Below, in pieces: positions 10,761 to 62,768 of a stretch of 64,000 bases of DNA. The stretch is from positions 100,714-164,713 of the forward strand of contig WHVA01000238.1 of assembly GCA_015179125.1 (NCBI GenBank), read 5' to 3'. The notes beneath the pieces are model-generated. The model worked only from the letters and a program-made list of their open reading frames with translations, made no database searches and had not been told where the DNA came from. The stretch's first letter is position 1. Each line of letters starts with the position of its first letter. This DNA comes from Gautieria morchelliformis (taxonomy: Eukaryota; Basidiomycota; Agaricomycetes; Gomphales; Gomphaceae). Both the position numbers and the translations under genes were made by a program.

Positions 10761-10765
10761 CCCCT

Positions 10766-15034: not shown

Positions 15035-18000
15035 CTAGGTGGGTACCCGCGCTTCGCGCGGGGGTGTAGGTCAAACGCATCGGTAAGGTCAAGTGCATTG
15101 GGGAAATAAAAGTAACCAATTTGCATCAAGTAAAATCAAGTAACACACATAAACCATATCAAGAGAAGTGGATATAATAAAATCAAGGAGCTCTAAGTAA
15201 TACATCTTTATATACAATGTTGGTTGTGTCCAAACCCTCCTCAAGCAAGACCTTCACTCTGTTTCAATTGGTCCCTCTTGATACACCAACATACAACTGA
15301 CCATGTCCAAACACTGGATATCTCAGGTCCAGCCCAACTGTACCCAAAGACTGTCCTTGAGACTTGTTGATAGTCATTGCAAATGCCAAACGCACTGGAA
15401 ACTGCCTCCTTTGCAGCACAAATGGCAACTCTCCCTCTGATGGCTTAATGATGATCCTGGGGATGAAAGCAATATTGCCTGCACATGGACCTGAGATGAT
15501 CCTGACCTCCAACACTCTAATGCTTATCCTCACCAACCGCAACCTTGTCCCATTGCATAGTCCTTGCTTCTGATCCAAATTGCGCAACAGCATCAGAGGC
15601 ACTCCAGGCTTGACTTCCAAGCGAGCAGGAGGAAGACAGCCCATCTCTATGGAATTCAGATACTCCACAGGATACCGATCTGCATCATCGGATTCTTCAA
15701 TGGAATTTGCGCAGTGCAAGACCTGAGCATCACCTGGAAACTCCCTAAACACCATGGAATTGATCTCATTGACCTCAGTGTTTCTGGCACAGAGGATGGC
15801 ACGCTCCAAAAAGCAATTGTCCTGGGCAGGGACATGATTGCCAATGCCAGGGTATATTTCCTGGATCAGATCTTCAATTCCAGGGCCACAAACCATGTGA
15901 GGAGGGAGTGAGAACGTATGAGCTAGTGGGAGATCCTTTCCCTGGCCCACATTCTGCAGCCATTCTGCAAACCTGGCTCTGTCAGGGTCATTTCTCTGCC
16001 GAGCACGCTCTGGCTCATGATAAGGAATACCTGGTTCCCATCCCAACTCTCCCTTGGGAAAGAGCAAGACATAGTGCAGTGAGGCATAGTTTGCATTGGT
16101 ATCCAATACCCTTCTGCAAGGTCCACCTCTGAGCTGGACAATAATATCCCTAGGTCCAGGGTCGATGCCATCTCCAAGAAGAACGACTGCAATCTCATCT
16201 GCAGTTGGGACATTATATCTCCTAGGATCCCTGTGTGCCCTGTACGTGAGCCTTGCCTGGATGTCACCATTCTGTTCTTGAGCTCTGAGCCTCTCAGCTG
16301 CTTGTTTATATGTGCGCACATGAGGATTGCATAGCAGGAGCATTTCCTGCAAGTCTCCCATGATAGTTGGAGACAGACGCTCATTACGATTTTTTCTCTT
16401 TGCCAAAGCCAGTGCAGGATCATATATGTAAAGCTGGGCATACTTTGGATCGTCTTCATTGTCAGGGAGGAGAGAGCCATGGAGATGATACAGTTCACCC
16501 TGTAGCTTGAGCACATATGGACCACGACCCTCCCGAAGCAAATCTTGGTCAAAGTCGGCCCCCACAGAAGTGAATGCAAAGGCAGCATTATACTGCCTGA
16601 TATTCTGGCGAAATCCTTTTGCCTCAGGGTCCTGGCCTTCTAAGAGCTGTTTCAATGGCTGAGGGGGCTCTGGCAGGTCTTCCAGCTGCACCTTTCCTTC
16701 CATACAGCAATCACCAAACCTGGGCCGCACATTTGAGGATTTCTGCAGACGTTCTGCCCTCCAGTGTAATGCTCCACAGTCAGGGCAGGGAATAACCATG
16801 GGACCCAAATCATGACGCTGCACATCTGCCTCAATTATTCTAGAGCGACCAAGTGGAAGAGGAGGAGGAGGTCGCTGAGGACGCTGCCAAGGTACAGGGA
16901 GCGGCTGAGGAGGTGCAGGGAGCAGCTGAGGAGGTTCAGGGAGTGGCTGGGGAGGCTGAGGAGGTGCAGGGAGCGGCTGAGGAGGTGCAGGGAGCGGCTG
17001 AGGAGGTGCAGGGAGTCGCTGAAGAGGCCGCAAAAGTGCAGGGAGTAGCGGCGGCATTGGTCTTATTGCATTGGCCTGAGCACGCAATGCTGCCACTCCT
17101 GCAGAACCTACTACAGGAGGTCTAGGAGCTGGTTGTACAGGTGCTTGCCTGTGTCTTCCCAAGGGCTGTGCTGGGATAGGCTGTATCCCAGCAGCCTGAG
17201 CACGCAAATCTGCCACCGCTGTAGAGCCTACCACCGGATGTCCAATTCCAGCTGCCTGAGCACGCAACTGAGCAATAGCCGCTGAACCTACTATGGGAGC
17301 GGGCTGTACAGGGTCTGGCCTATTTCTTCTCAGGGGCTGTAATGGTGGGATAACTGCTAACTGTGCACGAAGGGCTGCCACCTGCTCTCCAGCACTGAGA
17401 TTAGGAGGACGCGATGGTCCTGCAAGCATAGGAGGACGTGATGGCCCGGCCACAGGTTGTTGAAAAGGATCAGCGACATTGCTTCTAGGAGGAGGGTGGG
17501 GGATGGCAAAAGGCTGTGGTGGAGGGGGTGGCTGGTCCTGAGCTCTGACAGCAGCAGCAGCAAGTGCACGCGCTCTCCGATCAGTGGGCGACGTCATATG
17601 ACCCTCCTGCACCTCCCTCGCCCTTTCACGCTCCTGCTGACGATTTCTCTCTGGAGTAGATGGATCCCTGAGAAATGCAGGCATAAGCTTAGAAGAACAA
17701 TCAAGCTACCCCACTTCAACTTACATTTGCAAGCAGATGCAGCTGTTGTTAATTTTTCTTGGGCAAAGTCAGGGGAATTTATTAATTTCTAATTAAAATA
17801 AAATAAATAAATGTCAGATGGCTCACACCAGAGCACAGAGAAATATATACGTACCAAGGATGGGACTGAGAATTTGTTTGTTAGGCAAAGTCAAGGGAAT
17901 TTATGATTTTCTATTTAAAATAAAATAAATGTCAGATGGCTCACAGCAGACCAAAGAGAAATATATACGTACCAAGGAAGGGACGGGGAAATTGTTTGAT

Positions 18001-18604
18001 GAAAATATCCAAGTCTTCTTTGGCTATCCAACTGGAATAATTCCAGTAAAAGGTCTTGGTCCTGGTCCTGGTCCTGGTCCTGGGGAGATGTCTTCTTCAG
18101 CCACCAGTAGTGCAAGTCAACACTAAGAGAACTGCAATGCAATTGTGGCTCCCTCTAAGGCAGCCTGGGATGACTACCTGGCTCCTTAGCAGAGAAAAAG
18201 CTGCCCCACTGAAGAGGTCAACCCCAATAGTTCACTGCAGAGATCTCCCTGGGAAGAGATCTTTTGTGTTCTACACTATATAGGCTATCTATTAATTCAC
18301 TCTCACGCAATTTTATTCTATCTAGTGGGCAGAGAGGAGAGGAGGGTGGTGGTGGAGTGCGCAGACGCGGCTGCGCAGTGTTCTGCCAGCGCGTTCTGCC
18401 AGCTCAGCGCAGGGTTGAGCGCTGGAGCCGGAAGATCGGCGTGAACCGCCAGGAGCTCGCGGCTGCGCCGCTCGCGCGCTCCAGGTTCACGCCGGTCTGC
18501 CGGTCACGTGACCGCTGCGCAGCGTTGGTGCTGACATAAGTTTTACGTAATATTATTTGTAAGCGCGCCCACAACCTCCCACCGTGCTGCTTTCACCTAT
18601 AGGA
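15035..18604 (-). mobile_element. Helitron A: internally deleted autonomous-type element
   Basis: 3570 bp. On the minus strand the 5' end is TCCTATAGGTGAAAGCAGCA at 18604 and the 3' end is CTAG at 15038-15035. CTAG is preceded by the hairpin CCCGCGC-GAA-GCGCGGG and followed by T (complement of A15034). These are the hallmarks of a Helitron: 5' TC, 3' hairpin plus CTRR, host T. It is the only unit of the array on the minus strand. Its leader (17726-18604) is homologous to those of the elements at 23892, 38608 and 49497. The RepHel gene inside has lost its middle third. Confidence 0.88.
15183..17726 (-). pseudogene. RepHel remnant: N-terminal region fused in frame to the C-terminal helicase half
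   Basis: Split start codon AT at 17726-17725, intron 17724-17668, then frame onward (a contiguous frame also starts with ATG at 17684). The N-terminal Gln/Pro-rich repeats, the CPDC...GDCC zinc-binding motif and the Helitron-like N-terminal domain are intact to GIPYHEPERARQ. There the sequence jumps (near 15992) to RNDPDRARFAEW, which belongs about 860 residues further on in the full-length relatives. The Rep HUH motif, catalytic tyrosines, Walker A and Walker B are therefore absent, but helicase motifs V/VI (INKSQGQSLG, VGVSRG) remain. A TGG-to-TGA change at 15266-15264 stops the frame about 27 codons before the ancestral stop at 15183. The product cannot nick or hydrolyse ATP normally. Confidence 0.85.
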
Positions 18605-18882
18605 ATTCCTATAGGTGAAAGCGGCTCGGTGGGTTGTGGGCGTTGAGCTTATGTCAGGTTTTAGGTCAGCCTTAGTCAGCTGGCCAATCGGATGCGAGCG
18701 GCGCAGCCGCGAGCCAAGAACGCTGCGCAGCATGGTCACGTGACCGTTTGCGTTCCAAATTAGGTCAGCAGCGAGCGGCGCAGCCGCCCGCGAGCATGGA
18801 ACGCTGCGCAGCGGTCACGTGACCCGTTCGCGACCAGAGCGCGCATACGGGAGCGTGGTCCGTGCACGACACGCGCGCGTGG

Positions 18883-18888
18883 TATAAA
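18883..18888 (+). promoter_or_regulatory. TATA box of type II Helitron copy 1
   Basis: GGTATAAAGG follows GTGGTCCGTGCACGAC and two GGTCACGTGACC palindromes. The same arrangement recurs in all seven non-autonomous units. Confidence 0.55.
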
Positions 18889-19775
18889 GGCCGAATGGTA
18901 AGGAGGGAACGCCAGGAACCTGCCCAACCGCTGATTCCTCTGTCTGCTGTCTGCTATGTGCTCTGTCTGCTCTGTCCTCTGTGCTGTCTGCTATGTGCTC
19001 TGTCCGCTGTCTCCTCCTTTAGCTGGCTGCCTGTCTATTGCTTGGCTGGCTTTCTATTGGTAGGTAATATGTTTTGTTTAATGCATTGCCATGTATTTTA
19101 TTCTATTTGTGTTTGTAATTTTATTAGTTCTTTGTTTTTTCATAGTGTATTATATTTTGGTGATTTTTTTCGAAAATAGATTTAAATACCATCCAAAGAC
19201 TGCTGAAAAAAATGTATTTTAATATCAATATTTTTCAGGTTTTTTCGAAAGTAGACATCAATAAGTTCCCTCTAAAATTAATGAGATTCTGCTTTTAAAT
19301 GTGGTTTGTTTTATTGTTTTATTCACTGTAAAGCCACTTACTAGCCACTCCTCTCTGGCTATACTGGTGGCTGGCTTACTATGGCTTTGGCTGGGCATTA
19401 ATAACAGCCTCTGCTTCAATGTACTGTACTTTTTTGACATTTTTTCGCAGATAGATGTCAATAAATTATCCTGACTTCAGCTTAAATGTACAGTGCATTT
19501 TTTTTGACATTTTTCAAAAATAGATAATCTTGACTCTGCTAAAATTAATAACAACTTCAGCTTAAATGTACTGGACATTTTCTTGACATTTTTTCGAAAA
19601 ATAGATAATCCTGACTTTGCTAAAATTAATGACAGCAGCTGCTTAAATATGGCTTCCTTTACTATTGTATTTATGTCTGTATATGTCACAAAATAGATAT
19701 TGATACATGTCCCTGAGTTTGCGAAAAATTAATGATAAGTATCAGCCCCTGCTCGCTTCACTTTGAAGCCCTTGG

Positions 19776-20365
19776 GGATGTGCTACACATGCCATTGGGA
19801 CATGCTATGCATGCTATACTTGAGGGGCATGCTACACACACTAACATGCATGCTATGCTTGGGGACACGCATGTTATGCATGGGGACACGCATGTTATGC
19901 ATGGAGACACGCATGTTATGCGTGGGGACAAGCATGCTATGCATGGGGATGTGCACACTTTATGTGGGGACACACTATGCTTGGGGGACATGGTACAAAC
20001 AAGGGACACACTACAGGGGAATACACTACAAACACGGGACATTCTACACATGCTATACTTGGGGGACACGCTATGCATGGGGGACACACATGCTATAATT
20101 TAGGGACACGCTATGTTTGGGGAAATGCTACACACCAGGGACATGCTATGCATGTGGGACATGCCATGCATGTGGGACATGCCATGCACACTGTACTTGG
20201 GGATATGCAACATGTGGAGACACACTATGCATGGAGGACATGCTACACACACTATACTTGGGGACATGTTATATGTGGGCCAGGGACACAATAAGCATGC
20301 TATATTCGAGGCTATGCATGGAGGACATGCTATGCATGCTATACTTGGGCACATGCAGACATGTG
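19776..20365 (+). repeat. 21-bp minisatellite (GGGGACACGCATGTTATGCAT-like)
   Basis: Degenerate tandem units built on GGGGACAYGCTATGCATG with variable spacing. The related 17-bp array of type I elements shares the core GGGGACACGCTA. Several frames on both strands stay open because of the repeat; these are not genes. Confidence 0.85.
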
Positions 20366-20499
20366 TAGAGAGATTACCTATCTTGATGTGTTACTTATAG
20401 CTACTTCCATTGCAATGAGATGTGTTTTACTTATCCCAAGTTTGATTTACCCAATGCGTTTGACCTACACCCCTGTGTGAAGCATGGGTATCCACCTAG

Positions 20500-21980
20500 A
20501 GGTAAGGGTTCAAGAATCGAGTTAAGTTGGATATCAGAAATCGAGTTGGAAGGCAGAGAGACAGAGGCCTTGCAAGTACTTGCTGTGGTAAGAACAGGAA
20601 ACAGTGCAAAGGGAGTCACATATCAAAGTCAATTATCTCATTGCAGAACAGAGGCATATATGACTGGGTTTTATACAAAGAGCTGAGACAACATGTCAGA
20701 AGGTAGAGGTAAGCAATTCCAGTGCAAACAAAAGTAACTAGGATAAATGGAGTAAGTAACTAATACGGAACAAGAGGAACTACAAGGGGGTGCCGGGTAG
20801 AACTAAGAACAATCAATAGGCAAAAGAACAAGGGGAATGTGGGTCTAATTGATTGTTATGTATCGGAATTCCCAGAGGGCGGAACTGGAAAGGACAACAG
20901 CTTCAACTTATGTGTTGCACCCCTGATGAACTACCGTCCTAAGTATTTCGGGATTGACTTGCGGATATCGGAGAAGGCAGAAGTTAGGAACCGAGTACTG
21001 AGAGTCGAGGTTCGAGGGTCGGAGAACAAAGGTCGGAAGAGGTGGAAGAGGCGGAGGACAGAGGGTCGAGAGCGGAAGGAGACAAGACTAGCAAAACTCG
21101 CTGTGCTAAGAACAGGAGACAGTGTGAAGGGAATCATGTATCGAAGTTGATTATCTGATTGCAGGAATGGAGGCATACATGAGGGGGTTTTATACAAAGA
21201 GCTGAAGCAACAGGTAATGGTATGGTACTAAGCAAATTCTGGAGAGTGCAGGAATCGGATAGACATACGGGGCAAGTAACTAATGCGGAACAATGGGATG
21301 ACAAGGGGGTGTGCAGGGTAGGGTAAGTACAATGGCAAAGAACAAGGCGAGTAAGTACAATAGGCCTCGGAAGAAACGGAATTGCGGAAATGGTATCTTG
21401 CTGTGCTCAGGGTCGAGTACGGGGGCCGGTATCTGGAGGTGGCCAGGGGTACTGAAATCACAAGGGTTGAGGTAGAGGGTTGCAGATGGTGCGGATGTTG
21501 CGGAATAGAGTCGGAGGTGGTGCGGAGGCGGTGCAGAGGTGGTGCGGAGGATATGCAGATATGGCGGAGATGGTTGAGCGGAACAGTCGTAACATTGATA
21601 GTGGAACAAATGGATCTCCTGATGCTCCAGACTTGCTATGCTAAGGGTCAAGTAGGGAAGGCCAGCGAATAGAGTCAAAAGGGGAAGTATGTGAATAGTA
21701 AAGAACAAGGGGATCAAAAGGACAAAGTGTGGATGTTGCGGGATAGAGCCAGAGGAGGCATGGAGGTACCAGAGTTGGTCGAGCAGCATGGTCATAACAT
21801 TACCTACCTTGATGTGTTACTTAGAGCTACTTTCAATCAATAAGATGTGTTTTACTTATCTGAATGAAATTTTCTTATCCGAATGTGTTTGACTTATCCC
21901 AAGTTTGATTTACCCAAGGCGTTTGACCTTACCGAGGCGTTTGACTTGCACCCCCGCGCGAAGCGCGGGTATCCACCTAG
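20500..21980 (+). repeat. Truncated LTR plus Helitron 3' tail (X segment, copy 1), carrying a nested solo LTR
   Basis: Begins directly after CTAG with AGGTAAGGGTTCAAG, the interior of an LTR whose fuller copy is at 37397-38037. That LTR is interrupted by another one (20854-21594) and ends ...CATAACA at 21799, followed by TTACC and a Helitron tail with a perfect CCCGCGC-GAA-GCGCGGG hairpin and CTAG (21977-21980). I interpret it as the 3' part of an LTR-bearing type II Helitron. Equivalent segments are at 38219-38607 and 46871-47534. Confidence 0.65.
20854..21594 (+). repeat. Solo LTR with target duplication TTGAT
   Basis: 741 bp, TGTTATG...CGTAACA, flanked by TTGAT at 20849-20853 and 21595-21599. 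The paralogous segment at 47221-47240 reads straight through a single TTGAT, giving the empty site. This proves the borders and shows the insertion happened after the segment was duplicated. Confidence 0.9.
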
Positions 21981-22210
21981 TCTAAGAGTTAAACGCGCTC
22001 AGTGGGTTGTGGGCGTCGAGGCTGACTAATAATATTACAAATAATGTTACGGAATAATTAGGTCAGCGGAGCGAGCGGCGCAGCCGCGAGCCCTAGGCCC
22101 TGGCCCAGGCCAGACCATTGACGCTGCGCAGCAGCGTCCCAGGTCACGTGACCGGTTCGCGTTCGTCGCGACCATACGCGAGGGTGGTCCGTGCACGACC
22201 CTTCGCTTGG

Positions 22211-22216
22211 TATAAA
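22211..22216 (+). promoter_or_regulatory. TATA box of type I Helitron copy 1
   Basis: TATAAAGAGAG, 58 bp after a GGTCACGTGACC palindrome and just after GTGGTCCGTGCACGACC. Confidence 0.55.
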
Positions 22217-22873
22217 GAGAGTGATGCTGCAGAACCGCACTCCCCACTGGTGTCTTCCTGTGTTCTGGCTGTACTGGTGGGCTTACTATTGCTTTGGCTG
22301 GGCTCTGGGTGTCTTTGTGTGTGTCTCTGGGTGTCTCTGGGCTTCTCTGGCTGTGAATTGACACCAGCTTCTGCTTCAATGTCCTGTATATTTTTTTGAT
22401 ATTTTTTCGCAAATACATATCAATAAACCTAACTTGCTAACCTTCACAATAGCCAACTTACATATCCTGTACATTTTTCGATATTTTTTCGCAAATAGAC
22501 ATCAATAAATCTAACTGGCTAACCTCAGCCACCTTAACTATCCTGTAAATTTTTTTGACATTTTTTCGCAAATGGATATCAATAACTTATACTGACTTTG
22601 CTCAAGTTGATAACAACATCTGTTTTAATGTAGTGTGTTTTTTTTTATCTTTTTTTGAAAAATAAATATACATATCAATGAATTATCCTGACTTTGCTAA
22701 AATTAATACCAGCTTCAGGGTAAATGTACTGTATATTTTTTGACATTTTTTCAAAAGGTAGATATCAATGAATTATCCAGGCTTTGCTAAAATTAATGAC
22801 AACAGCTGCTTAAATGTGGTTTCTTTTGCTATTTTATTTATGTCTATATAAATAGATACCGATACATGTCCCT

Positions 22874-23428
22874 GATATGTGTGAGGACATGTTACGTGTG
22901 AGGACACGCTACCTGTGGGGACACGCTACCTGTGGGGACACGCTACCTGTGAGGACACGTTACCTGTGAGGACACGCTACCTGTGGGGGACACACTACCT
23001 GTGAGGACACGCTACCTGTGAGGACATGCTACCTGTGGGGACACATTACCTGTGAGGACACGCTACGTTTGGGGACACGCTACCTGTGAGGACACGTTAC
23101 GTGTGGGGACACGCTACCTGTGAGGACACGCTACCTGTGAGGACATGCTACCTGTGGGGACACATTACCTGTGAGGACACGCTACGTTTGGGGACACACT
23201 ACCTGTGAGGACACGTTACGTGTGGGGACACGCTACCTGTGAGGACACGTTACGTGTGGGGACATGCTACCTGTGAGGACATGCTACCTGTGAGGACATG
23301 CTACCTGTGGGGACACGCTACGTTTGGGGACACGCTACCTGTGAGGACACGTTACGTGTGGGGACTCGCTACCTGTGAGGACACGCTACCTGTGAGGACA
23401 CGTTACGTGTGAGGACATGCTATCCAAC
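22874..23428 (+). repeat. 17-bp minisatellite (GTGAGGACACGCTACCT)
   Basis: About 32 tandem units, varying mainly at GAGG/GGGG and GCTACCT/GTTACGT. Because 17 is not a multiple of three, the array cycles through all frames. Confidence 0.92.
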
Positions 23429-23555
23429 TGCACTTTGGGTCTTCCCCCATTTCTGATTTTGGTATTGTTTCTGGTTCTGTGAGAGTGTCACCGGAGGATC
23501 AGCTGGCATATTGATGTAACCACATTGTCAACATTCAGGATCCCCAAGATCACTA

Positions 23556-23756
23556 TTGGATCTATTTCACAATGCACAAGCTTTGAAACCTGTTGATTAT
23601 GACAATAGGCGCAATCTTATAATCTCTGATGATTCAGTCAAGACTATTACCACTTTCATGTCTAGAGTCGCTGGGAGGCCCATCCCAGAGGTCGAGAGAG
23701 AGCTCTGCATGTTCGGCTGTTCCATGGGTGCATACATGATTCATGATACTATATGA
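23556..23756 (+). other. Conserved short reading frame of type I Helitrons (copy 1)
   Basis: 66 codons (DLFHNAQALKPVDYDNRR... to ...MIHDTI) with no ATG at the start. Nearly identical frames occur in the three other type I elements. Immediately upstream, a different frame encodes SPEDQLAY...YWIYFTMHKL, which overlaps it, as if a longer captured coding segment had suffered a frameshift. In this copy the upstream frame is broken by a TGA. No family is recognised. Confidence 0.4.
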
Positions 23757-24782
23757 TCAGGGATATATTTTGCATGATCCTATTTACCCTAATGCACTTG
23801 ACCTTACTGATTCACTTGACCTTACTGATGCATTTGACCTTACCAAGGCGCTTGACCTACACCCCCGCGCGAAGCGCGGGTACCCACCTAGTCTAAGAGT
23901 TAAACGCGCTCAGTGGGTTGTGGGCGCTGCTGACCAATGCTTGGTCACCAGTTTGTCAGCGGAGCGCGCGAGCGGCGCAGCCGCGAGCCCCTGGGCCCTA
24001 CCGGCGGTTTGCGCCACTCTGCCGGCTCCAGCGCTGCGCAGCGTTCTGGAGCGTGCGAGCGGCGCAGCCGCGAGCGGTTTACGCCGGTCTGCCGGCTCAG
24101 GCGCTCAAAGCAGCGCTGCGCTGGCAGATCGCTGCGCAGCCAGCCGCTTTGCGCACTCCACCACCACCCTCCTCTCCTCTCCTCTCTGCCCACTACTAGA
24201 TAGAATAAAAATTGCGTGAGAGTGAATTAATAGATAGCCTATAGTGTAGTACACAAAAGATCTCTTCCCAGGGAGATCTCTGCAGTGAACTATTGGGGTT
24301 GACCTCTTCAGTGGGGCAGCTTTTTCTCTGCTAAGGAGCCAGGTAGTCATCCCAGGCTGCCTTAGAGGGAGCCACAATTGCATTGCAGTTCTTTTAGTGT
24401 TGACTTGCACTACTGGTGGCTGAAGAAGACATCTCCCCAGGACCAGGACCAGGACCAGGACCTTTTACTGGAATTATTCCAGTTGGATAGCCGAAGAAGA
24501 CTTGGATATTTTCATCAAAAAAATTTCCCATCCCTTCCTTGGTACATATATTTCTCTGTGGTCTGGTGTGAGCCATCTGACATTTTTTTATTTTATTTTT
24601 TTAAATAGAAATTAATAAATTCCCGTGACTTTGCCTAACAAACAGACTCCCTGTCCCTTCCTTGGTATGTATGTATTTCTCTGTGGTCTGGTGTGAGCTG
24701 TCTGACATTGATTTAATTAGAAATTAATAAATTCCCCTGACTTTGCCCAAGAAAAATTAACAACAACAGCATCTGCTTGCAA

Positions 24783-47734: not shown

Positions 47735-47740
47735 TATAAA
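47735..47740 (+). promoter_or_regulatory. TATA box of type I Helitron copy 4
   Basis: TTGGTATAAAGAGAG after GGTCACGTGACC near 47677. Confidence 0.55.
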
Positions 47741-49047: not shown

Positions 49048-49178
49048 CAACTGCACTTTGTGTCTTCCCCCATTTCTGATTTTGGTATTGTTTCTGGTTC
49101 TGTGAGAGTGTCACCGGAGGATCAGCTGGCATATCGATATAACCACATTGTCAAAATTCAGGATCCCCAAGATCACTA

Positions 49179-49937: not shown

Positions 49938-50162
49938 TTGCATTGCAGTTCTTTCAGTGTTGACTTGCACTACTGGTGGCTGAAGAAGACATCTCCCCAG
50001 GACCAGGACCAGGACCAGGACCTTTTACTGGAATTATTCCAGTTGGATAGCCGAAGAAGACTTGGATATTTTCATCAAAAAAATTCCCCATCCCTTCCTT
50101 GGTACATATATTTGTCTGTGGTCTGGTGTGAGCCATCTGACATTTTTTTTTTTTTTTTTTAA
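49938..50162 (+). other. Short leader frame of autonomous Helitrons with GACCAG repeat
   Basis: About 75 codons (HCSSFSVDLHYWWLKKTSP, then QD repeats) lying roughly 450-230 bp before the RepHel start. Counterparts occur at 24378-24608, 39087-39320 and on the minus strand at 18142-17915. The opposite strand is also open (50136-49954, FDENIQVFFGYPTG followed by PG repeats). Repeat number varies by whole 6-bp units. It is undecided which strand, if either, is translated. Confidence 0.3.
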
Positions 50163-50340
50163 ATAGAAATTAATAAATTCCCTTGACTTTGCCTAACAAA
50201 CAAACTCCCTGTCCCTTCCTTGGTATGTATGTATTTCTCTGTGGTCTGGTGTGAGCTGTCTGACTTTTATTTAATTAGAAATTAATAAATTCCCCTGACT
50301 TTGCCCAAGGAAAATTAACAACAACAGCATCTGCTTGCAA

Positions 50341-53300
50341 ATGTAAGTTGAAGTGGGGTAGCTTGATTGTTCCTCTAAGCTTATGCCTACATTTCTCAGG
50401 GATCCTTCTACTCCAGAGAGAAATCGTCAGCAGGAGCGTGAAAGGGCAAGGGAGGAGCAAGAGGGTCATATGACGTCGCCCACTGATCGGAGAGCGCGTG
50501 CACTTGCTGCTGCTGCTGTCAGAGCTCAGGACCAGCCTCCCCCTCCACCACAGCCTTTTGCCATCCCTCGCCCTCCTCCTAGAAGCAATGTCGCTGATCC
50601 TTTTCAACAACCTGTGGCTGGGCCATCACGTCCTCCTATCCTTGCAGGGCCACCACGTCCTCCTATGCCTGCAGGGCCGTCACGTCCTCCGGATCCCAGT
50701 CCTGGACAGCAGGTGGCAGCCCTTCGTGCTCAGTTAGCAGCAATCCCAGCAGCACAGCCTGTGAGAAGATACAGGCAGGAGCCTATACGGCCACCTCCCA
50801 ATCTTCCTGTGGTTGGTTCTGCAGGAATTGCACAGTTGCGTGCTCAGGCTGCTGAGCAGTCTGCTATATTGCAGCAATTGGGAAGAGGTAGACAGGCAGC
50901 TAATCCTTCTGTAGTAGGTTCTGCAGGAGTGGCAGCATTGCCGGCTCAGGCCAATGCAATAAGACCAATGCCTCGGCTACTCCCTGCGCTTCTGCAGCCT
51001 CTTCAGCGACTCCCTGCACCTCCTCAGCCTCCTCAGCAACTCCCTGCACCTCCTCAGCCACCTCAGCCACTCCCTGCACCTCCACAGCGTCTTCTGCCAC
51101 TCCCTGCACCTCCTCAGCATCTTCTGCCACTCCCTGCACCTCCTCAGCCTCCTCAGCCACTCCCTGCACCTCGGCAGCGTCCTCAGCAACCTCCTCCTCC
51201 TATTCCACTTGGTCGCTCTAGAATAATCGAGGCAGATGTGCAGCGTCATGATTTGGGTCCCATGGTTATTTCCTGCCCTGACTGTAAAGCATTGCACTGG
51301 ATGGCAGAACGCCTGCAGAAATCCTCAAATGTGCGGCCCAGGTTTGGTGATTGCTGTATACAAGGAAAGGTGCAGCTTCCAGAGCTGCCAGTGCTCCCTC
51401 AGCCATTGAGACGGCTCTTAGAGGGCCAGGACCCTGAGGCCAACCAGTTTCGCCAGAACATCAGGCAGTACAATGCTGCATTTGCATTCACTTCCTTGGG
51501 AGCCGACTTTGACCTAGATTTGCTTCGGGAGGGTCGTGGTCCATATGTCCTCAAGCTGCAGGGCGAACTGTATCATATTCATGGCTCTCTCATCCCTAAC
51601 CCTGGGAGGCGGATACAGTATGCCCAACTTTATATATATGATCCAGCATTGGCTTTGGAACAGAGGAACACGCGTAACCCAGGTCTGTCTCCAACTATCA
51701 TGGGAGACTTGCAGGAAATGCTCCTCTTATGCAATCCTCATGTTCCCATATATAGACAAGCGGCTGAGAGGCTCAGAGCTCAGGGACAGAATGGTGAGAT
51801 CCGGGCTAGGCTCACATACAGGGAACACAGGGATCCTAGGAGGTATAATATCCCTACTGCGGATGAGATTGCGGTGGTTCTTCCTGGAGATGGCATCAAC
51901 CCTGAACCTAGGGATGTTATTGTCCAGCTCAAAGGTGGACACTTTCAAAGGGTATCGGATATGAATCCAAACTATGCCTCTCTTCACTATGTCTTGCTCT
52001 TTCCCAGGGGAGAGTTGGGGTGGCAACCTGGTATTCGCTATCGCCAATTACCAGACGGGCGTGAGCGAAGTGGGCATGTCACCCAAATTCAGTTCCATTC
52101 CTATCGTCTCTTCCAGAGAACAGAAGAACCTACAACACTCCTGCGCGCTGGCAAATTATTCCAGCAGTACATTGTAGACTCTTGGGCCGCTGCAGAGCAA
52201 AGCAGGCTGTGGTGGATCAGGACAAACCAACACACTCTCCGTGCTGAGATGTATAACCAGATGATGGATGCCTTTCATCGCAATGACAATGACAGAGATC
52301 CAAACAACTTGGGCGCAAGATCCATTCTGCCTGCCACATTTCAGGGGGGGACACGGGACATGCAGCAAAACCTGCAGAACTCTCTGGCCATTTCAAGGAA
52401 GTATGGTGTGGCTGATCTCTTTATTACCATGACTGCCAATCCCAACTGGCAGGAGGTATTGGATGCGTTGTTGCCTGGACAAACTCCTCAGGACAGGCCT
52501 GACCTGGTGTCGCGGGTGTTCCAGCTCAAAAAGAAATACCTCATTGACTTGATTGTCAAGGAAAAGATTTTTGGGGAAACCGTCGCTCGCGTGCACACCA
52601 TTGAATTCCAGAAAAGGGGACTCCCACACATGCATATTATTATCTGGTTTGAAAGAGATTCCAAGATCAGACATCCACATGAGGTGGATTCAATGATTTC
52701 GGCAGAGTTCCCTGATCCAGAGACTCATCCTGTCCTCTACCGGTTGGTCTGTGAGCTGATGACACATGGTCCCTGTGGACAAATGAAACCAAACGCACCC
52801 TGCATGGAAAATGGCAAGTGCAAGAAAAACTTCCCAAAGCCATTCTGTGAGGAAACCAGTCTGAATGAGGATGGATATCCAAAATATCGTCGTCGCAATG
52901 ATGGAAGGCTGCACAATGTCAGAGGTCACATGCTGGACAACAGATGGGTTGTGCCATACTCTGCTCTGCTCTTGCTCAAATTCTGGTGTCACATCAACCC
53001 TGAACTCACCATCAATGTGAGGTGTATCAAGTATATCCACAAGTATCTCTACAAGGGCCATGATCGGACCACCATGGAGTTTGGTCGCACCCAGGATGAA
53101 ATTAAGCAGTACCTGGACGCTCGCTATGTCAGTGCTCATGAGGCCTGTTGGAGGTTGCTGGAGCGGGAAATCCACACCCAGGTGCCTGCAGTCATGGCAC
53201 TGCCAGTCCATGAAAAGGACCATCACACAATCATCTTTGATCCCAACCAGGATGTGGACAACATCCTGGAAAGGGCTGAGGCAAAAAAGACACCGCTCAT

Positions 53301-55377
53301 GGCTTACTTTGAGGCCAATGATATCTACCCTGAAGCACGTGATCTGCTCTATGTGGAGTTTCCTGAGCATTTTACCTGGCACTCACAGGAAAAGGTATGG
53401 ACACCACGCCAAGGAGGTTATAGCATCGGTCGCCTTCACTTTGCAAACCCTAGATCAGGAGAGAGATTTTTTGTGCGCACTCTCCTCACAGTGGTCAAGG
53501 GGGCTAGATCCTTTGAGGAGCTTAGGTCGGTGGATGGCATACAATATGCTACTTACAAGGAGGCCTGTCGTGCAAGGGGACTTCTGGATGATGATCAGGA
53601 GTTGAGGTTGTGTCTCCAGGAAGCCAGTGGCATGAAAACAGGTGCTCAGCTCAGACATCTCTTTGCCACCATCCTTGGCCATTGCAATCCATCGGGTCCT
53701 GGCAGACTATGGGATGGCTTCAGGGAGCACATATGTGATGATCTCAGACATCAGCTCCAAATCAGACATGGTATGCAGGATCCACAGGATGATCAGGTTT
53801 ATGATTTTGGCCTCTTTCTCTTGGAAAAAATCCTCCAGCAGGGTGGAATGTCCTTGAGCAGCTTTGATGATATGCCTCGGGTGGCAGGCGAGTGGGAGGC
53901 CCTCATTGGAAACAGGTTCATAGCTGAGCAGAGGGACTATGACCGTGTTGAAGAGAGGGAAAAGGCTGATGAGGAGGTTCCCAAGCTGAATGAGGGGCAA
54001 AGGTCTGTGCATGATCAGATATTACGGTCGGCACTGACCAGAGATGCTCATGGGAAACCTGATGGACAAATGTTTTTTGTCACTGGCTCAGGTGGCGCCG
54101 GGAAATCATTCACATGGAACACTCTAATCCACTCCTGTAGAGCGGAGAGCCTCATTGTGATTGCAGTAGTCTCATCTGCAATGGCTGCACTTATCCTCAC
54201 TAAGGGTACAACCTCTCATAGCATGCTTGGAATTCCCATTCCTGTCCATGAGCGCTCTTTCTCCTCCATCAAAAAGAACTCTGACAAGGCTGACATGCTG
54301 AGACAGGCCAGTCTCCTCATCTGGGATGAGGCTGCAATGCAGCATCGCCATGCCATAGAGGCCATTGACAGGACACTGAGGGATTTCCTTGACCAGCCTG
54401 ATAGACCCTTTGGTGGCATCACAGTCGCCTTTGGAGGTGACTTTCAGCAGACTCTCCCAATTGTCCCTAAAGGCTCCAAGGAGGATATCGTGGGAGCTAC
54501 CCTTCAGAAGTCATATCTGTGGCCAAAGATCAATGTCCTCCATCTGACAGAGAACATGCGGGTGAGAAATGACCCTGACAGAGCCAGGTTTGCAGAATGG
54601 CTGCAGAATGTGGGCCAGGGAAAGGATCTCCCACTAGATCATACGTTCTCACTCCCTCCTCACATGGTTTGTGGCCCTGGAATTGAAGATCTGATCCAGG
54701 AAATATACCCTGGCATTGGCAATCACGTCCCTGCCCAGGACAATTACTTTCTGGAGCGTGCCATCCTCTGTGCCAGAAACACTGAGGTCAATGAGATCAA
54801 TTCCATGGTGTTTAGGGAGTTTCCAGGTGATGCTCAGGTCTTGCACTGCGCAAATTCCATTGAAGAATCCGACGATATAGATCGGTATCCTGTGGAGTAT
54901 CTGAATTCCATAGAGATGGGCTGTCTTCCTCCTGCTCGCTTGGAAGTCAAGCCTGGAGTGCCTCTGATGCTGTTGCGCAATTTGGATCAGAAGCAAGGAC
55001 TATGCAATGGGACAAGGTTGCGGTTGGTGAGGATAAGCATTAGAGTGTTGGAGGTCAGGATCATCTCAGGTCCACGTGCAGGCAATATTGATTTCATCCC
55101 CAGGATCATCATTAAGCCATCAGAGGGAGAGTTGCCATTTGTGCTGCAAAGGAGGCAGTTTCCAGTGCGTTTGGCATTTGCAATGACTATCAACAAGTCT
55201 CAAGGACAGTCTTTGGGTACGGTTGGGCTGGACCTGAGATATCCAGTGTTTGGACATGGTCAGTTGTATGTTGGTGTATCAAGAGGGACCAATTGGAACA
55301 GAGTGAAGGTCTTGCTTGAGGAGGGTTTGGACACAACCAACATTGTATATAAAGATGTATTACTTAGAGCTCCTTGA
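50341..55377 (+). CDS. Helitron Rep-helicase (RepHel) transposase, intact
   Basis: Rolling-circle transposase joining an HUH nickase to a Pif1-like 5'-3' helicase. A contiguous frame of 1664 codons starts with ATG at 50383. I favour a start codon split by an intron (AT 50341-50342, intron 50343-50399, then G), giving 1659 residues. Numbering from ATG 50383: Arg/Glu-rich start; VVGSAGIAQLRAQAA repeats; PAPPQP array at about 205-270; zinc-binding C298, C301, C324, C325; Helitron-like N-terminal domain; HUH His749 and His751 (RGLPHMH); catalytic Tyr884 and Tyr888 (KYIHKY); Walker A GSGGAGKS 1235-1242; Walker B D1315-E1316; GGDFQQ; NKSQGQ at 1604-1609; arginine-finger motif VGVSRG with R1634. Length and motif order match complete fungal Helitron proteins. 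No defects are seen. Confidence 0.96.
50343..50399 (+). other. Predicted intron splitting the RepHel start codon
   Basis: GTAAGTTGAAG...TTTCTCAG, 57 nt. The exon upstream ends ...GCAAAT and the exon downstream begins G GAT CCT TCT, so splicing creates ATG. Without splicing, ATG is followed directly by TAA. Equivalent introns: 24785-24841, 39497-39553, 17724-17668 (minus) and, in the divergent family, 57551-57610. Confidence 0.65.
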
Positions 55378-55498
55378 TTTTATTATATCCACTTCTCTTG
55401 ATATGGTTTATGTGTGTTACTTGATTTTACTTGATGCAAATTGGTTACTTTTATTTTCCCCAATGCACTTGACCTTACCGATGCGTTTGACCTACACC

Positions 55499-55526
55499 CC
55501 CGCGCGAAGCGCGGGTACCCACCTAG
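55499..55526 (+). other. 3' terminus of Helitron E: hairpin and CTAG
   Basis: 7-bp GC stem, GAA loop, 7 nt, then CTAG, immediately followed by TC of the next element. The same structure ends every type I, autonomous and X unit of the array. Confidence 0.9.
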
Positions 55527-55839
55527 TCTATAGTATAAAGTTCTAGGGGGGGCGGTTGTGGGCCTCCCTATATGAAAACAGCACGCTCCGCTGACATAAT
55601 CCTGACATAAGCCTGACATAATCCTGACTAAGACGCAAACAAACCACGCAACTATGGCGGGGCTTGAATGCGAGCGGTGCAGCCGCGAGCAGCGTCTAAT
55701 CCTGACTAAGACGCTGCGCACGACGCGCGTTCTCTACCCCCTGCCATCACGCTCTCCCACCGTCCTCCCAGCGTGCTTCTTTCATATCTATTTCTGTCTC
55801 AGGTATGTTCTCACCTCCTGGATCAATTGACTGACCCTG

Positions 55840-56640
55840 ATGAGGCATGCAGAAGCTTTTCATTCACTGGTGTGTCTCTCATTTAATTTTCGCTTTTTTA
55901 ACTCATTTTTGGCCCCTTTTTAGGCCAGATTACACCTCTCAGCTCCTCTTCACTCTGCCTGTGGGTGTCTGCCTGCATCCTGGTGAGCATCCTGGCCCCA
56001 TTTTCGCTTTTTTTGCATGGTTTGCTCATGCAAGCAGCTCTGCAGTGCCTTGGGTATGTTTTTCTCTTTTATTTTCGCTTTTTAGGCTTATTTTTGCCTT
56101 TCTCATGCCAGATCTATCCTCCCAGCCTCATATCTCTTAGGTATGGTTTCATCCTCTGAGCAATTCCCCTTTTCTGTGTTAATTTTCGCTTTTTTGCCCC
56201 ATTTTTCCCCTTTTCAGGCCAGATTACACCCCTCAGCTCCTTTTCACACTACCTGTGGGTGTCTGCCTGCATCCTGGTGAGCATCCTGGCCCCATTTTCG
56301 CTTTTTTTGCATGGTTTGCTCATGCAAGCTGTTCTGCAGTGCCTTGGGTATGTTTTTCTCTTTTATTTTCGCTTTTTTAGGCTTATTATTGCCTCTCTCA
56401 GGCCTGATCTATATTCCCTGCCTCATATCTCTTAGGTATGGTTTCATCCTCTGAGCAATTCCCCTTTTCTGTGTTAATTTTCGCTTTTTTGCCCCATTTT
56501 TTCCCCTTTTCAGGCCAGATTACACTACCTGTGGGTGTCTGCCTGCATTCTGGTGAGCATCCTGCCCTCATTTTTGCTTTTTTGCAGGGTTTGCTCATGC
56601 TAGAAGCTCTGCAGTGCCTTGGGTATGTTTTTCTCTTTTG
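55840..56640 (+). repeat. 295-bp tandem repeats in the leader of Helitron F
   Basis: About 2.7 copies. GGCCAGATTACAC recurs at 55923, 56217 and 56513. Each unit has T-rich stretches (ATTTTCGCTTTTT) and several intron-like GTATG/GTGAGC and TTTTCAG/CTTAG motifs. Confidence 0.85.
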
Positions 56641-57185
56641 ATTTTGCTTTTTAAAGTTTATTTTGGCTGTTTTTCAAGCTTACTTAGGCCTTTTTCATCC
56701 CAGATATACTTCCAAGCCTCCTATTCCTTTGGTAGGTTTTCGTTCTCATCACATTGTTGCTTTTTTGAAATTAATTTAGACTTTGTTATCAGGTCCTCCA
56801 ACAGGCCTTCCTGTCATTGGTGAGTTTGGCGGTCACTTTTACTTTTCTTGGATGCTTATTAGATATATCTAAGTCCCTCTGGTATATTTGGTTGTTTTAT
56901 ATAACTGTTTCAGGCTTGATTTAACCTCTTCATTCCAGATCTGTTCTCCAGGCTGTCACTCCTTAGGTATCTTCCTATTCTCATAGCAATTTTCCTTTTT
57001 GGCACCAATTTTGGGTTTGTCCATAACTGATCAGTTTGCTATTTCTTTCAGTCCCAGCTATCCAGTAAGGTTTTGCCATCTGTATGTTGGATTTTCAAGC
57101 TAATGTTGACTTGGCCATTAGTTTCCCTTCTTGGTTTTTGCTAGGCTCTGTGCGGTGCTAATCTCTCTGGCCTATAGTGATTGAG

Positions 57186-57540
57186 GTGGTTGGTTGGTTG
57201 GATTGTGCACTGGAAGCTTGCATTGCAGTTTGGTTCTGGCAAGAATTACAACTCCAGTGTGGTCTGTGAACTGGATTGGTTTGGTGGTGCATATTGGATT
57301 TAGGGGGTTTAGGTGGACATTGACCACCTTGCTGGTATCTGTGGTGGATTTGTTAGGTTGGGTGGTCAGTTGGTTGGATTGTGCACTGGGGGCTTGCATT
57401 GCAGTTTGAGTCTGGCCAGAGTTACAACTCTGTTAGCCAGTGTGGTCTGTGAACTGGGATTGGTTTGGTGGTTTAGACGGTTTAGGTGGACATCGACCGC
57501 ATCCCTGGTATCCCCTATTGTTGGTTGTGAGCTACAGTCA
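57186..57540 (+). repeat. 176-bp tandem duplication in the leader of Helitron F
   Basis: GATTGTGCACTGG recurs at 57201 and 57377, followed by similar GCTTGCATTGCAGTTT, TGTGGTCTGTGAACTGG and GTTTAGGTGGACAT segments in the same order. Confidence 0.75.
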
Positions 57541-57548
57541 TTGTGAAA

Positions 57549-60500
57549 ATGTGAGTATCCTTGATAAAAAAATTTTTTTTGGCTTGATTTGAAACTGACT
57601 GTAATCTAAGGGAGCCCTCTACACCAGAGCGTGATAGGCAGGAGGAGCGTGCTCTGGAGCGTCAGCGGCGGTTGCCAATGACGTCCCCTTCTGTGCGTCG
57701 TCGGGATAGGGTTCTCGCTGCAGCTCAAGAACGTCTTCGAAATCCTGACCCTCCACCTCCTCAGCCATTTCCTCGACCTCTACTCCCTCAGGACAATGCA
57801 ATTCCTTGGCCTCCTGTGGCTGGACCTTCAAATGCCATTCCACCTGATCTAAGTCCTCGGGATGCTGTACGTGCCATACAGGAACGGTTAGCAGATATGC
57901 CTCTAGCACCTGTGCGTCAGAGACATCCCCTGTTAGCACCGCCACCTGTTCCTGTAGGCTCTGCAGCAGTAGCGGCACTGCGGGCCCAGGCTGCTAATGC
58001 CCAGATAGCACCTCCTCCTGTCCCTGTAGGCTCTGCGGCGGTAGCTGCCTTGCAGGTCCAGGCTGCTAATGCCCAGATAGCACCTCCTCCTCCCGTCCCT
58101 GTAGGCTCTGCAGCGGTAGCTGCCTTGCGGGTCCAGGTCGCTAATGCCCAGATAGCACCTCCTCCTCCGTCCCTGTAGGCTCTGCAGCGTAGCTGCCTTG
58201 CGGGCCCAGGCTGCTAATATCAATCCTAGACCTCTGCCACAACAAAGACAGGCACGACGGCGCGCACGACACCCTGAACCTCTCCCAGATCAAATGCCAC
58301 TCCAGCAGCAGCCTGCACCACAACAACCTGTACCTCCTCTGCCTCCAGGGCCCCCTGTGCCTCCACAGCCTCTGCATCCACCTGCTCCTCCTCAGCCCCC
58401 TCCACTTCCACCGCCTCCACCAATGCCTTTAAGAACCCTTCCGCTAGCACATCGCCCTTTGATTGAACAACAGATTGCACCTCATGACCTTGGTGCTATG
58501 GATGACAAATGTCCAAAATGTAAAGCATGGCATTGGAAGGCAGAGCGTCTGTCCGACTCTACCATTGCTGAGCCCAAATTTGGTATATGTTGTTCAAAGG
58601 GCCAGATACACCTTGAATTGTTGATGGAACCTCCAGAACCACTAAAGACTCTTTTGGTCAGCCAAGACAGGCGTGGCAAACAGTTTAGAGAAAAGATTCG
58701 GAACTATAATGCTGCACTGGCATTTGTCTCTGTGGGAGTGAACATAGATGACAAGGTCGTGAATAGACCTGGGCCATATGTCTTCAAAATTCAGGGAGGC
58801 CTCTATCATATTCATGGCGCTCTTCTTCCTACTCAGGGTCAGGATAGGCCACCCAGCTATGCGCAGCTCTACTTTTATGATCCAGCAGAGGCTTTGCGAC
58901 GTAGGGAGGCCAATAACAGTTTTGATCCTTTGGATTCAGATGTTTTAAGTGACCTCCAAGAAATGATGCAGGCTCACAATCCATTGGTTCCAATCTATCA
59001 GCAGGCGATGGAAAGGCTTAGGAACCAGCCAGATAGGTTGACTGTGGAGGCCAGACTCACCTACAGAGCACATACAGACCAGAGAAGATATAATATTCCT
59101 ACAGCAGATGAGATTGCCATTGTGCTCCCTGGAGAAGGTGTGCCTGGAGGCACTAGAGACATTGTCATTCAGCTTAGAGGTGGAGAACTGCAACGAATTC
59201 AGGCCGAACATGCTTTGTATGCACCACTACACTATGTGCTTCTCTTTCCCAGAGGTGAATCAGGCTGGGATTGGGACATTCCACGGATAGACCAAGCTCT
59301 TCCACGACAAGGCCAGGAGGGGGAGGAGGAGGAGGACCCTTCAAGTGACAGGCGTGTGACCATGTCAAAATACTATCGTTATCGTCTTTTTCCAAGGGAG
59401 GGTGAAGCTGAAACTCTCTTCCTAGCTGGCAAGCTCTTTCAGCAATACATTGTGGATGCTTGGGCAGCGACTGAACAGCAGAAGCTAAATTGGATCAAAT
59501 ACCATCAACACGAGCTGCGAGCTGAGGTCTACAATCAGATGATTGATACATTTGGACCTGAGGACAATCAGGCCAATCCAGCTAACTTGGGACAAAAGGT
59601 CATCTTGCCTGCTACATTTACTGGGAGCGCCAGGGATATGAACGAGAATTTTCAAAATTCAATGGCAATCACTAGGAAGCATGGTCCAGCAGATGTCTTT
59701 GTGACAATGACAGCAAACCCCCAGTGGAAAGAAATCAAAGATGCTCTCAAGCCAGGCCAGACTCCCAGTGATCGTCCTGACTTGGTTGCAAGGGTTTTTC
59801 ATCTCAAGAAGGAGCAATTGATCAAACGTATCATGAAGGATGGTATCCTTGGTCGCACAGTTGCACGTGTCCATGTGATCGAATTCCAGAAGCGGGGGCT
59901 CCCTCATATGCACCTTCTTATATGGTTTAAAGAGGAGGATAAGATCAGGACACCAGAAGCTGTGGATGCTTTGGTTTGGGCTGTGTTTCCTGATCAGCAA
60001 GAGCATCCAAGGCTCTACAAATTAGTTTGTGATCTAATGACTCATGGCCCCTGTGGACAAGCGCGTCCTCGGGCTTCTTGCATGACAGAGGGCAAGTGTT
60101 CTAAACATTTCCCAAAGGAATTTCGTGAGGTGACATCTGTCACTGAAGATGGCTATCCAAAGTATCGCCGTCCTAATGATGGCAGACAGCATAATGTCAG
60201 AGGCAACATCATGGACAACCGCGACGTGGTTCCCTATTGTCCCACCCTCCTCTTGGAATTTGAATGCCATATTAATGTGGAACCCACATTCAATGTGCGC
60301 TCTATCAAGTACATTCACAAGTATATGTACAAGGGGCCTGACAGGACCACAATGACCATTAATAAGGAGAGGGATGAGGTTAAACAGTACCTCGATGCAC
60401 GCTATGTCAGCTCACATGAAGGTGCTTGGAGACTGCTGGAATATAAAATGCATGTTCAGGTCCCTCCTGTCATGGCACTTCCAGTCCATTTGCCAGGCCA

Positions 60501-62640
60501 GCACAATGTGATATTTGATCCTCATATGGATCCAGGCATGGCTTTGCAGAGGGCAGAGGATGCTAAGACCATGCTCATGGCCTATTTTGAAGCCAATGAC
60601 AGATATCCTGAGGCACGTGAACTACTCTATGTGGAATTTCCTGAGCACTATGTTTGGAAAAAGCAAGCCAAGCGGTGGCAGCCTCGCCAGCGGGGTTTCA
60701 GTCTTGGTCGCCTTCATTTTGCAAGTCCAGCCTCTGGAGAGCGCTTTTTCTTGCGAACCCTCCTTACAGTTGTCAGAGGCGCAACGTCATTTGAGGAGCT
60801 TAGATCCTTTGATGGTGACCTTTGTCCTACTTACAAGGCTGCATGCCTGGCAAGGGGCCTGTTAGAAGATGATTCAGAGTGGACACAGTGTCTTCAGGAG
60901 GCTGCACATATACAAACAGGTTTCCAGCTCAGGAGGTTATTTGTCACTATTCTCCTTCGGTGTAACCCTGCTCGGCCTGCTCAAATCTGGGAGGAGTTTC
61001 AGGAGCGTATTTGTGATGACCTGGAGTATCAGCTTCAAAATAGGCATGGCATTCACCATCCTACCAATGATCAAATCTATGACTTTGGTCTCTTTCTCAT
61101 TGACAAGATCATACGTCAGGGGGGGAAGTCTCTGGATGAGTTCCCAGATATGCCACAGATAATGGGGCACTGGGAGGGATTGGTAGGGAACCGTTGGATA
61201 GCTGAGCAGCGGGACTATGACCCAGCTACAGAGCTGGAAAAAGCCGCCACCAATATTGACAAGCTTAATGCAGAACAGAGGCGTGTCCATGATGAGATCC
61301 TCCATTCAGCCATAAATGGAGAGGGTCTTCTGTTCTTTGTCAATGGCCCTGGTGGTACAGGCAAAACTTTTACCTGGAACACCCTGGCTCATTCTATCAG
61401 AGGAAGGGGTCTTATTGTCCTATGCATTGCATCTTCAGGAATTGCAGCATTGCTTCTAATTGGGGGCAGAACATCACATGCTATGCTCAAGATTCCAATT
61501 CTGATTCATGAGGGTTCTCTATGTGACATCAAAAGAGGCTCACCATTGGCAGAACTTCTCAAGCAGGTCCATTTGATCATATGGGATGAGGTGCCTATGC
61601 AGCATCGTCATGTAGTTGAAGCTGTCGACAGAACCTGCAGGGATGTCCTAGATCGTCCAGATCGTCCATTTGGTGGTATTACTGTGGCTTGGGGTGGAGA
61701 TTTCCAGCAAACTCTGCCTGTCGTTCCTCGAGGTAACAAGGAGGAGATCGTGGGTGCTTCTATCCAAAGATCTCCTTTGTGGCATCATGTCAAGGTCCTC
61801 CATCTTACTCAAAATATGCGAGTCGACCCTCATGATCCCCAGAGTGAACAATTTGCTCAGTGGCTCTCTGATGTTGGTCAGGGAAAGGATCTCCCTTTGG
61901 ACAATTCATTCACACTTCCTCAGCACATGATCTGTGGACCACAGGTGTCAGATCTCATTGCAGCTATCTATCCTAACATTGGTACTGGGGAGGCACTCCA
62001 AGACAAATACTTTTTGGAACGTGCCATCCTTTGCCCTCGCAATATGGAAATGGATGAGATTAATGCTGAGGTGCTCAATGTATTCCCTGGGGATGAGCGT
62101 CTCTATCCCAGTGCGGACTCGGTCAAAGGAAATGAAGATGGCAATGTGTATCCTGTGGAGTATCTTAACTCACTCAACATGGGTGGGCTTCCTCCATCTC
62201 AACTCAGGCTTAAACCTGGAGTGGTACTCATGCTTCTTCGGAATATTGACCTTGGTCGTGGACTCTGCAATGGTACAAGGTTGCGTCTCATCAATATGAC
62301 CAACAGGGTACTCTTTGTGAGGATCATTTCTGGACCATTTGCAGGAGAGACTGCATTTATCCCTAGGATGACAGTGACACCCACCTCAGACCAATTGCCA
62401 TTTGAGCTCCAGCGTCGCCAGTTTCCTGTCAGGCTGGCCTTTGCCATGACTATCAACAAGTCTCAAGGGCAGTCTCTTGGCACGGTAGGCATAGACTTGC
62501 GATACGTGGTATTTTCACATGGACAGTTGTATGTTGCAGTGTCAAGGGGCACTAATTGGAACAGAGTCCATATTCTTTTAGGGGAGGGGAACAAAACTTC
62601 TAATATTGTATACAAAGAAGTGTTGCTGAAGCCTGATTAA
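57549..62640 (+). pseudogene. Divergent Helitron Rep-helicase gene with two 1-bp deletions near the N-terminus
   Basis: Start codon split by an intron (AT 57549-57550, intron 57551-57610 with GTGAGT...CTAAG, then G GAG CCC). The first frame runs to 58178 through an Arg-rich start and three VPVGSAAVAALRAQAANAQIA units of about 75-78 bp. In the last unit one C (near 58168) and one G (near 58189) are missing relative to its neighbours, which shifts the frame. From 58198 a frame of 1480 codons is open to 62640. Numbering from 58198: zinc-binding C105, C108, C131, C132; HUH H570 and H572; Tyr705 and Tyr709; Walker A GPGGTGKT 1050-1057; Walker B D1130-E1131; motif VI VAVSRG with R1450. All catalytic motifs are present, so only the N-terminal repeat region is damaged. 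An internal start could still give an active core. Confidence 0.9.
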
Positions 62641-62738
62641 ATATGTATTTCCATTTGTATTTAATGTATGTAGTTGCATTTCACCAAATAATTCTTTGAT
62701 TCTATTAACTACCCATGTGCAATGTTAACCCTAAATAA

Positions 62739-62768
62739 CCCGGTGCGAAGCACGGGTCTATTGGCTAG
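62739..62768 (+). other. 3' terminus of Helitron F and right border of the array
   Basis: CCCGGTGC-GAA-GCACGGG (one bulged base), then TCTATTGG, CTAG and T62769. Flanking sequence beyond has no Helitron features. Confidence 0.85.

Follow-up and report, generated by a model that had tools for sequence, protein, structure and literature searches.

How do a dozen Helitrons come to lie end to end at one place in a fungal genome? The window analyzed here, a 64,000-nucleotide stretch of a Gautieria morchelliformis contig, raises this question through an array of such elements that an original prediction had described from the sequence alone. Two origins were offered then: insertion targeted to the 3' end of a resident Helitron or read-through rolling-circle replication producing concatemers. 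The origin of adjacent Helitrons with G/T junctions was left open in 2008, and the hundreds of cases in this genome, together with its empty sites and off-register events, suffice to separate concatemers from sequential insertion; they also suit testing of whether RepHel recognizes resident left ends.

RESULTS

Extent and composition of the array

Positions 15025 to 62768 of the window are an end-to-end Helitron array (Table 1). Its existence was predicted correctly, with fifteen units; we count 12, because the ends at 20499, 38218, and 46870 are decayed 3' ends internal to units. Their hairpins have decayed, the next base is A or G rather than T, and matching internal ends lie inside copies elsewhere (L018, L021, L049, L058, and L064). 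They resemble former 3' ends that have undergone read-through. An internal old 3' end with a new one downstream, as found in U2, U7, U9, and copies elsewhere, is the arrangement of Helitron gene capture by 3' read-through (RTM1). The right edge at 62768 was given to the base, as two empty copies of the site go on there with TCACCC, but the non-host sequence starts at 15025 and not at 15035. The first two bases of the insert are ambiguous, TC being shared there with the host. The 10-bp TCTATATCTA at this edge is perhaps the remnant of a resident 5' end (U12 begins with TCTATAG) or a 5' extension of U2; it was set aside as proof that U12 came first, since U2 could have carried those 10 bp.

TABLE 1 Units of the Helitron array and its host flanks in the window
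Feature	Position	Strand	Remarks
Left host flank	15000-15024		Ends in target A (CTACA); matches empty-site copies C378 and C245 (L093, L094)
10-bp TCTATATCTA	15025-15034		Missing from both empty-site copies; non-host, outside U1
U1, inverted Helitron, broken RepHel	15035-18605	-	3' end CTAG at 15035; 5' end GGAA/TTCC at 18605
U2, Helitron without RepHel ORF	18606-21980	+	TTCC 5' end; decayed internal 3' end at 20499; matching copy on C1015
U3, Helitron without RepHel ORF	21981-23891	+	TCTAAGAG 5' end
U4, RepHel Helitron	23892-30109	+	Frame split in three ORFs: 24825-26786, 26800-27822, 27819-29930
U5, Helitron without RepHel ORF	30110-32305	+	Junction sequence
U6, Helitron without RepHel ORF	32306-35115	+	Junction sequence
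U7, Helitron without RepHel ORF	35116-38607	+	Decayed internal 3' end at 38218, within ~81% tandem duplication
U8, RepHel Helitron	38608-44565	+	Two ORFs: 39537-42896, 42860-44416
U9, Helitron without RepHel ORF	44566-47534	+	Decayed internal 3' end at 46870; probe match on C239
U10, Helitron without RepHel ORF	47535-49496	+	Probe match on C204
U11, RepHel Helitron	49497-55526	+	Single open frame 50383-55377 (1,664 aa); HUH, YxxKY, and Walker A motifs
U12, RepHel Helitron, second family	55527-62768	+	ORF 58198-62640 (1,480 aa); 3' end GGTCTATTGGCTAG; solo copy on C724
Right host flank	62769-64000		Begins with target T (TCACCC); joined to left flank in C378 and C245

Ten head-to-tail junctions read exactly CTAG and then the T of the next unit (21980, 23891, 30109, 32305, 35115, 38607, 44565, 47534, 49496, and 55526), and all five examples cited originally are among them. 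The next unit was expected to open with TC, which holds at most junctions; at 44565 and 18605, it opens with TT. All units but the first were said to point the same way, and 11 of the 12 do so, with U1 inverted and meeting U2 head to head at 18605/18606 (GGAA/TTCC). Self-comparison places array neighbors in different subfamilies. It also reveals long internal tandem-repeat tracts of unequal length in U3 (22870 to 23420), U5 (31080 to 31840), U6 (33220 to 34650), and U10 (48340 to 49045).

Of the five RepHel genes in two families claimed for the array, RepHel-type coding sequence is indeed present in five units, but U1 holds only a broken copy, an 806-aa ORF with Pif1_2B as its sole domain. Helitron_like_N, PIF1, and Pif1_2B domains occur together in the proteins of U11 and U12 and are spread over several ORFs in U4 and U8; a pattern search located HUH, YxxKY, and Walker A motifs in these four units. 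An HUH Rep with YxxKY and a Pif1-like helicase are the RepHel parts of canonical, Helitron1-like Helitrons. U11 and U12 keep an intact frame; that of U4, U8, and U1 is broken. U12 shares ~66% DNA identity with the other RepHel units over the common coding part and has a 3' end of its own. CTAG follows a hairpin at the 3' ends, in keeping with the CTRR end of canonical Helitrons; the stem measures 7 bp in two ends of the first family (z scores of -3.8 and -2.9) and is longer and less exact in the second family (z score of -2.8). The 5' ends open with TC in the TCTAAGAG and TCTATAG types and with TT in the TTACAC and TTCC types.

A single host insertion site

A flank search recovered the left flank twice more, on C378 and C245 (alleles or duplicates), and in both copies the left flank of the window runs directly into its right flank as CTACA^TCACCC. 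Therefore, the entire insert from 15025 to 62768 occupies one site between A and T (A^T), which is empty in two near-identical copies. Longer flank pieces match the window on both sides at 99.2 to 99.7% in four of the five stretches fetched; C378:14000-14600 gave no match to the window, and synteny far to the left is unsupported there. Insertion at A^T without target duplication is also evident at a second site, where the empty copies read GGCGAGCA^TACTAAT in seven of seven cases. At the L067 site, none of the four empty copies shows a clean A^T.

Outside the array, the window contains a Copia retroelement (6269 to 10764) with a 1,340-aa ORF on the minus strand. Judging from its flanking 225-bp direct repeats (6269 to 6493 and 10540 to 10764), which are 99.6% alike, this element is probably a young insertion. 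Part of an FMO-like monooxygenase lies near the array on the minus strand (13117 to 13896).

Genome-wide junctions and their orientation

The CTAG/TC junctions that had been singled out for a genome-wide search are no peculiarity of this locus but occur hundreds of times. A looser pattern yielded 741 head-to-tail junctions (372 plus 369), with 0 and 0 in the reversed-pattern controls. Chance would produce ~0.15 exact stacks, given 1,126 3' ends (up to one mismatch) and ~8.4 million AT sites, a figure extrapolated from the AT frequency of the window. One junction type is present at 362 sites (up to two mismatches), and exact TCTAAGAGTTAAACG 5' ends number 312 genome-wide. Looking outward from the ends, 22 of the 28 3' ends read among the first 30 cut out abut another unit, and an exact 3' end lies upstream of 64 of the 100 TCTAAGAG 5' ends listed. 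The longest stack read has 12 units. Stacking crosses families, since a second-family 3' end directly precedes first-family units at L131 and L132.

Orientation is one-sided, with 741 head-to-tail junctions versus 5 head-to-head. The head-to-head pattern matched six sites (one in the reversed control), five of them Helitron pairs joined at or near their 5' ends; the sixth, L074 (C992:232664), is an unrelated near-perfect inverted repeat. The genome-wide pattern search found no true tail-to-tail pair, its sole site (C807) reading as an A^T insertion eight bases into the 5' end of a TTACAC-type element. AT is palindromic and would lead to head-to-head pairs in equal number, so the strand bias does not come from A^T targeting by itself.

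The bases next to the ends are equally regular. Of the 166 outer 5' ends listed, defined by a base other than C at position -5, 146 follow an A (58 of 66 in the complete set and 88 of the 100 listed of 142), and the other 20 are preceded by CTAG (8 cases), T (10 cases), or another G (2 cases). T follows 59 of 66 hairpin-bearing 3' ends, the remaining 7 being decayed internal ends.

Off-register and nested insertions

Several insertions lie a few bases away from a resident 5' end. At -2, two bases upstream of the resident, the sequence reads CTAG/TA/TTCC at L139 and in one row of the junction list, and head-to-head counterparts occur at L069 and L072. Others fall inside the resident 5' end, at +4 and +9 (L071 and L073), at +6 (both halves on C188), and at +8 (C78 and C807, with downstream halves at C263, C612, C656, C723, and C1103). 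Every one of these is at A^T. Two further off-register joins, L061 and L005, involve short 5' fragments that lack A^T at their end. Most off-register insertions read thus sit on A^T around the 5' end of a resident.

TCCTA precedes 15 of the 166 outer 5' ends; in all 15 rows, from 14 loci, between one and four copies of TTCCTA lie ahead of the 5' end. Additional copies in the same number range were noted at L098, L100, and L102 to L110, and C188 and C353 are mosaics of several 5' fragments. Abortive rolling-circle stutter was dropped as the source of these repeats, as nested self-insertion in the form outlined for Fusarium (PMC5148889) suffices and calls for no new process. The TAGTA 5-mers preceding some 5' ends were considered as TCTATAGTA fragments, a reading ruled out by L139, where they belong to the -2 insertion.

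DISCUSSION

Probable stacking at resident 5' ends

On balance, the array is probably a stack of separate insertions at one A^T site, chosen as a Helitron left end and used through nicking and joining by RepHel. The first element would have entered CTACA^TCACCC, and its first T, together with the host A, would remake A^T at its 5' boundary. A newcomer would then enter directly 5' of the leftmost element, leaving CTAG/T between the units and restoring the outer A^T. The G/T junction would thus arise because each newcomer enters between the host A and the resident T, with the target recreated at every insertion. Under this model, U12, the rightmost unit, would be the oldest.

RepHel of any related element may recognize and nick the resident left end (A/T, perhaps G/T inside the array). 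The 3' end of the incoming strand (CTAG) would be joined to that left end, in an in-trans form of the right-to-left joining that forms circles, and fixed strand polarity would make the orientation uniform. We propose this nick and the joining of CTAG because the strand bias and the repeated use of one A^T need explaining. Whether RepHel preferentially takes the left end of resident Helitrons as acceptor, whichever their family, nicking it and joining it in trans to the right end of another element, is, in our view, an evenly balanced call. The single site, the mobility of single units, the exact junctions, the A at outer ends, the genome-wide excess, and the orientation bias are observations; from them we infer the order of insertion and the nick-and-join chemistry. 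Against the model stand the joins at L061 and L005, which are not at A^T, and the L067 site, which is not a clean A^T; moreover, A^T by itself leaves the bias unexplained.

An unlikely alternative: entry at resident 3' ends

The idea of targeted resident Helitrons in the original prediction is supported. It placed the target at the 3' end, which needs G^T; the canonical A^T is present at the 5' end of every resident, where it gives exactly the CTAG/TC junction. Entry there, at a noncanonical G^T after CTAG, yields the same junction and draws support from contigs that share part of an array. C45 and C1074 have the left host flank and the first unit in common (98.8%) but not the second unit; on C74, part of U9 is followed by U10 and U11, as in the window, and then by another unit replacing U12. 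In both of these presumed allele pairs, the left unit is common and its right neighbor differs, as 3'-end entry would have it; the presence pattern of a maize pair, as given in PMC2267711, fits likewise. Because C45/C1074 and C74/window differ inside the arrays, strict growth at the outer 5' end is disfavored. If growth is otherwise at the outer 5' end, the patterns of C45/C1074 and C74 require later G^T insertion or recombination between units.

C42 and C43, in contrast, share the right flank and the apparent last unit and differ in the upstream 3' end type, which fits growth on the upstream side and speaks against 3'-end entry. All four pairs, C45/C1074, C42/C43, C20/C354, and C74/window, may be haplotypes, some of which differ in array content; C74, C45, and C1074 are short, and their overlaps stop inside repeats. 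Left-end targeting that includes internal G/T, or recombination between units, would reconcile the conflicting pairs. Entry at 3' ends demands a G^T target when A precedes almost all outer 5' ends, and, in a comparison centered on resident 5' ends, it leaves the head-to-head pairs and the -2, +4, +6, +8, and +9 insertions unexplained. We regard it as a rather unlikely route.

Mobility of single units

Read-through concatemers inserted in one step, or moves of multi-unit blocks, would account for the constant orientation, the single site, and the lack of intermediate states at the locus. Transfer in blocks also has one block-like exception in its favor, the conserved order of the U9 part, U10, and U11 on C74. 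Rolling-circle multimers would nevertheless have like neighbors from one template, and the neighbors here are unlike. We compared 47 junctions with at least 700 bases on each side, calling two sides alike at 90% identity or more over 400 bases. The left side was alike in 172 pairs and the right side in 43, and both sides were alike in 6 pairs versus 6.8 expected under independence; one of these six is C74 against the junction at 49496 of the window (>99.7% on each side).

Several units also have copies elsewhere. Probes of 200 bp from the 12 units gave 100% matches on other contigs for U1, U2, U7, U9, U10, U11, and U12 among the 40 of 3,112 candidates scored, with U7 on at least 18 other contigs; for the five remaining units, the window itself was the sole match listed within those 40 of 3,112, which is not evidence of absence. 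The U2 copy on C1015 has other units on either side, the U9 match on C239 differs in its 5' end and is followed by another unit, and the U10 copy on C204 is flanked by different units (the upstream one judged by its 3' end type). U12 is alone in host DNA on C724 and has host DNA on its left on C322. Among the 40 scored candidates, no other contig carried several window probes at 100% in order. Concatemers are thus unlikely, because junction pairing is random and copies of U2, U9, U10, and U12 have differing neighbors or none. Nor do they predict nested, head-to-head, or off-register cases, and we assign one-step or block insertion very little probability.

Passive accumulation and assembly artifacts as unlikely alternatives

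Ordinary A^T insertion in permissive chromatin, with resident ends going unrecognized, would be in keeping with the use of A^T by Helitrons and with fungal Helitrons being said, in a passage of PMC4289320, to land among Helitrons. Such a pile-up would scatter over many A^T sites, whereas at least 741 insertions lie at a resident boundary, against ~0.15 expected, and the orientation is 741 to 5; we consider it highly improbable. Misassembly of dispersed repeats is barely credible: C74, C45, and C1074 are short, error-rich, and end in repeats, but the sides of the junctions share no joinable overlap, the identical junction type recurs hundreds of times, and the empty-site copies fit both array edges to the base.

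Relation to known Helitron systems

A close likeness to the junctions described here is a maize pair reported in 2008 (PMC2267711), in which unlike Helitrons are joined as CTAG/TC with the same G/T junction and for which both insertion at A^T of a 5' end and insertion at G^T of a 3' end are named as models. Some maize lines carry the upstream element only, which points against growth on the 5' side. Single G/T junctions are on record for maize and bat, with the order unresolved. Maize offers one such pair; here, junctions number 741, the stacks read reach 12 units, and there are also an empty site and off-register and head-to-head insertions.

Tandem Helitrons of bat, rice, fly, and plant centromeres (cited in PMC2267711, PMC5148889, and PMC5876387) are perfect head-to-tail repeats, usually read as rolling-circle multimers or circles. 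The arrays described here differ in that neighbors are unlike and pair at random, and in their mixture of full-length units from two RepHel families. In Fusarium, one FoHeli4 sits 2 bp upstream of the 5' terminus of another element, and Chellapan et al. (2016, PMC5148889) derive multiple 5' termini from nested self-insertion, followed by mobilization of the stretch between the outer 5' terminus and the first 3' terminus. Such nesting fits the repeated TTCCTA fragments in our genome. FoHeli elements, as described there, have noncanonical termini and targets, in contrast to the canonical A^T and CTAG and the massive stacking found here.

Helraiser RepHel joins CTAG exactly to TC, and double-stranded circles with this junction are active donors (Grabundzija et al. 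2016, 2018; PMC4778049, PMC5876387). The ends joined there come from one element, and we propose the same joining between two. If this holds, rolling-circle transposition can be self-targeting, sparing host DNA and building long oriented stacks, and other genomes may show such arrays as satellite-like Helitron tracts. Neighboring Helitrons joined in this way are already published. Among the open-licence papers listed in our searches, none describes unlike Helitrons stacked across a genome at resident 5' ends.
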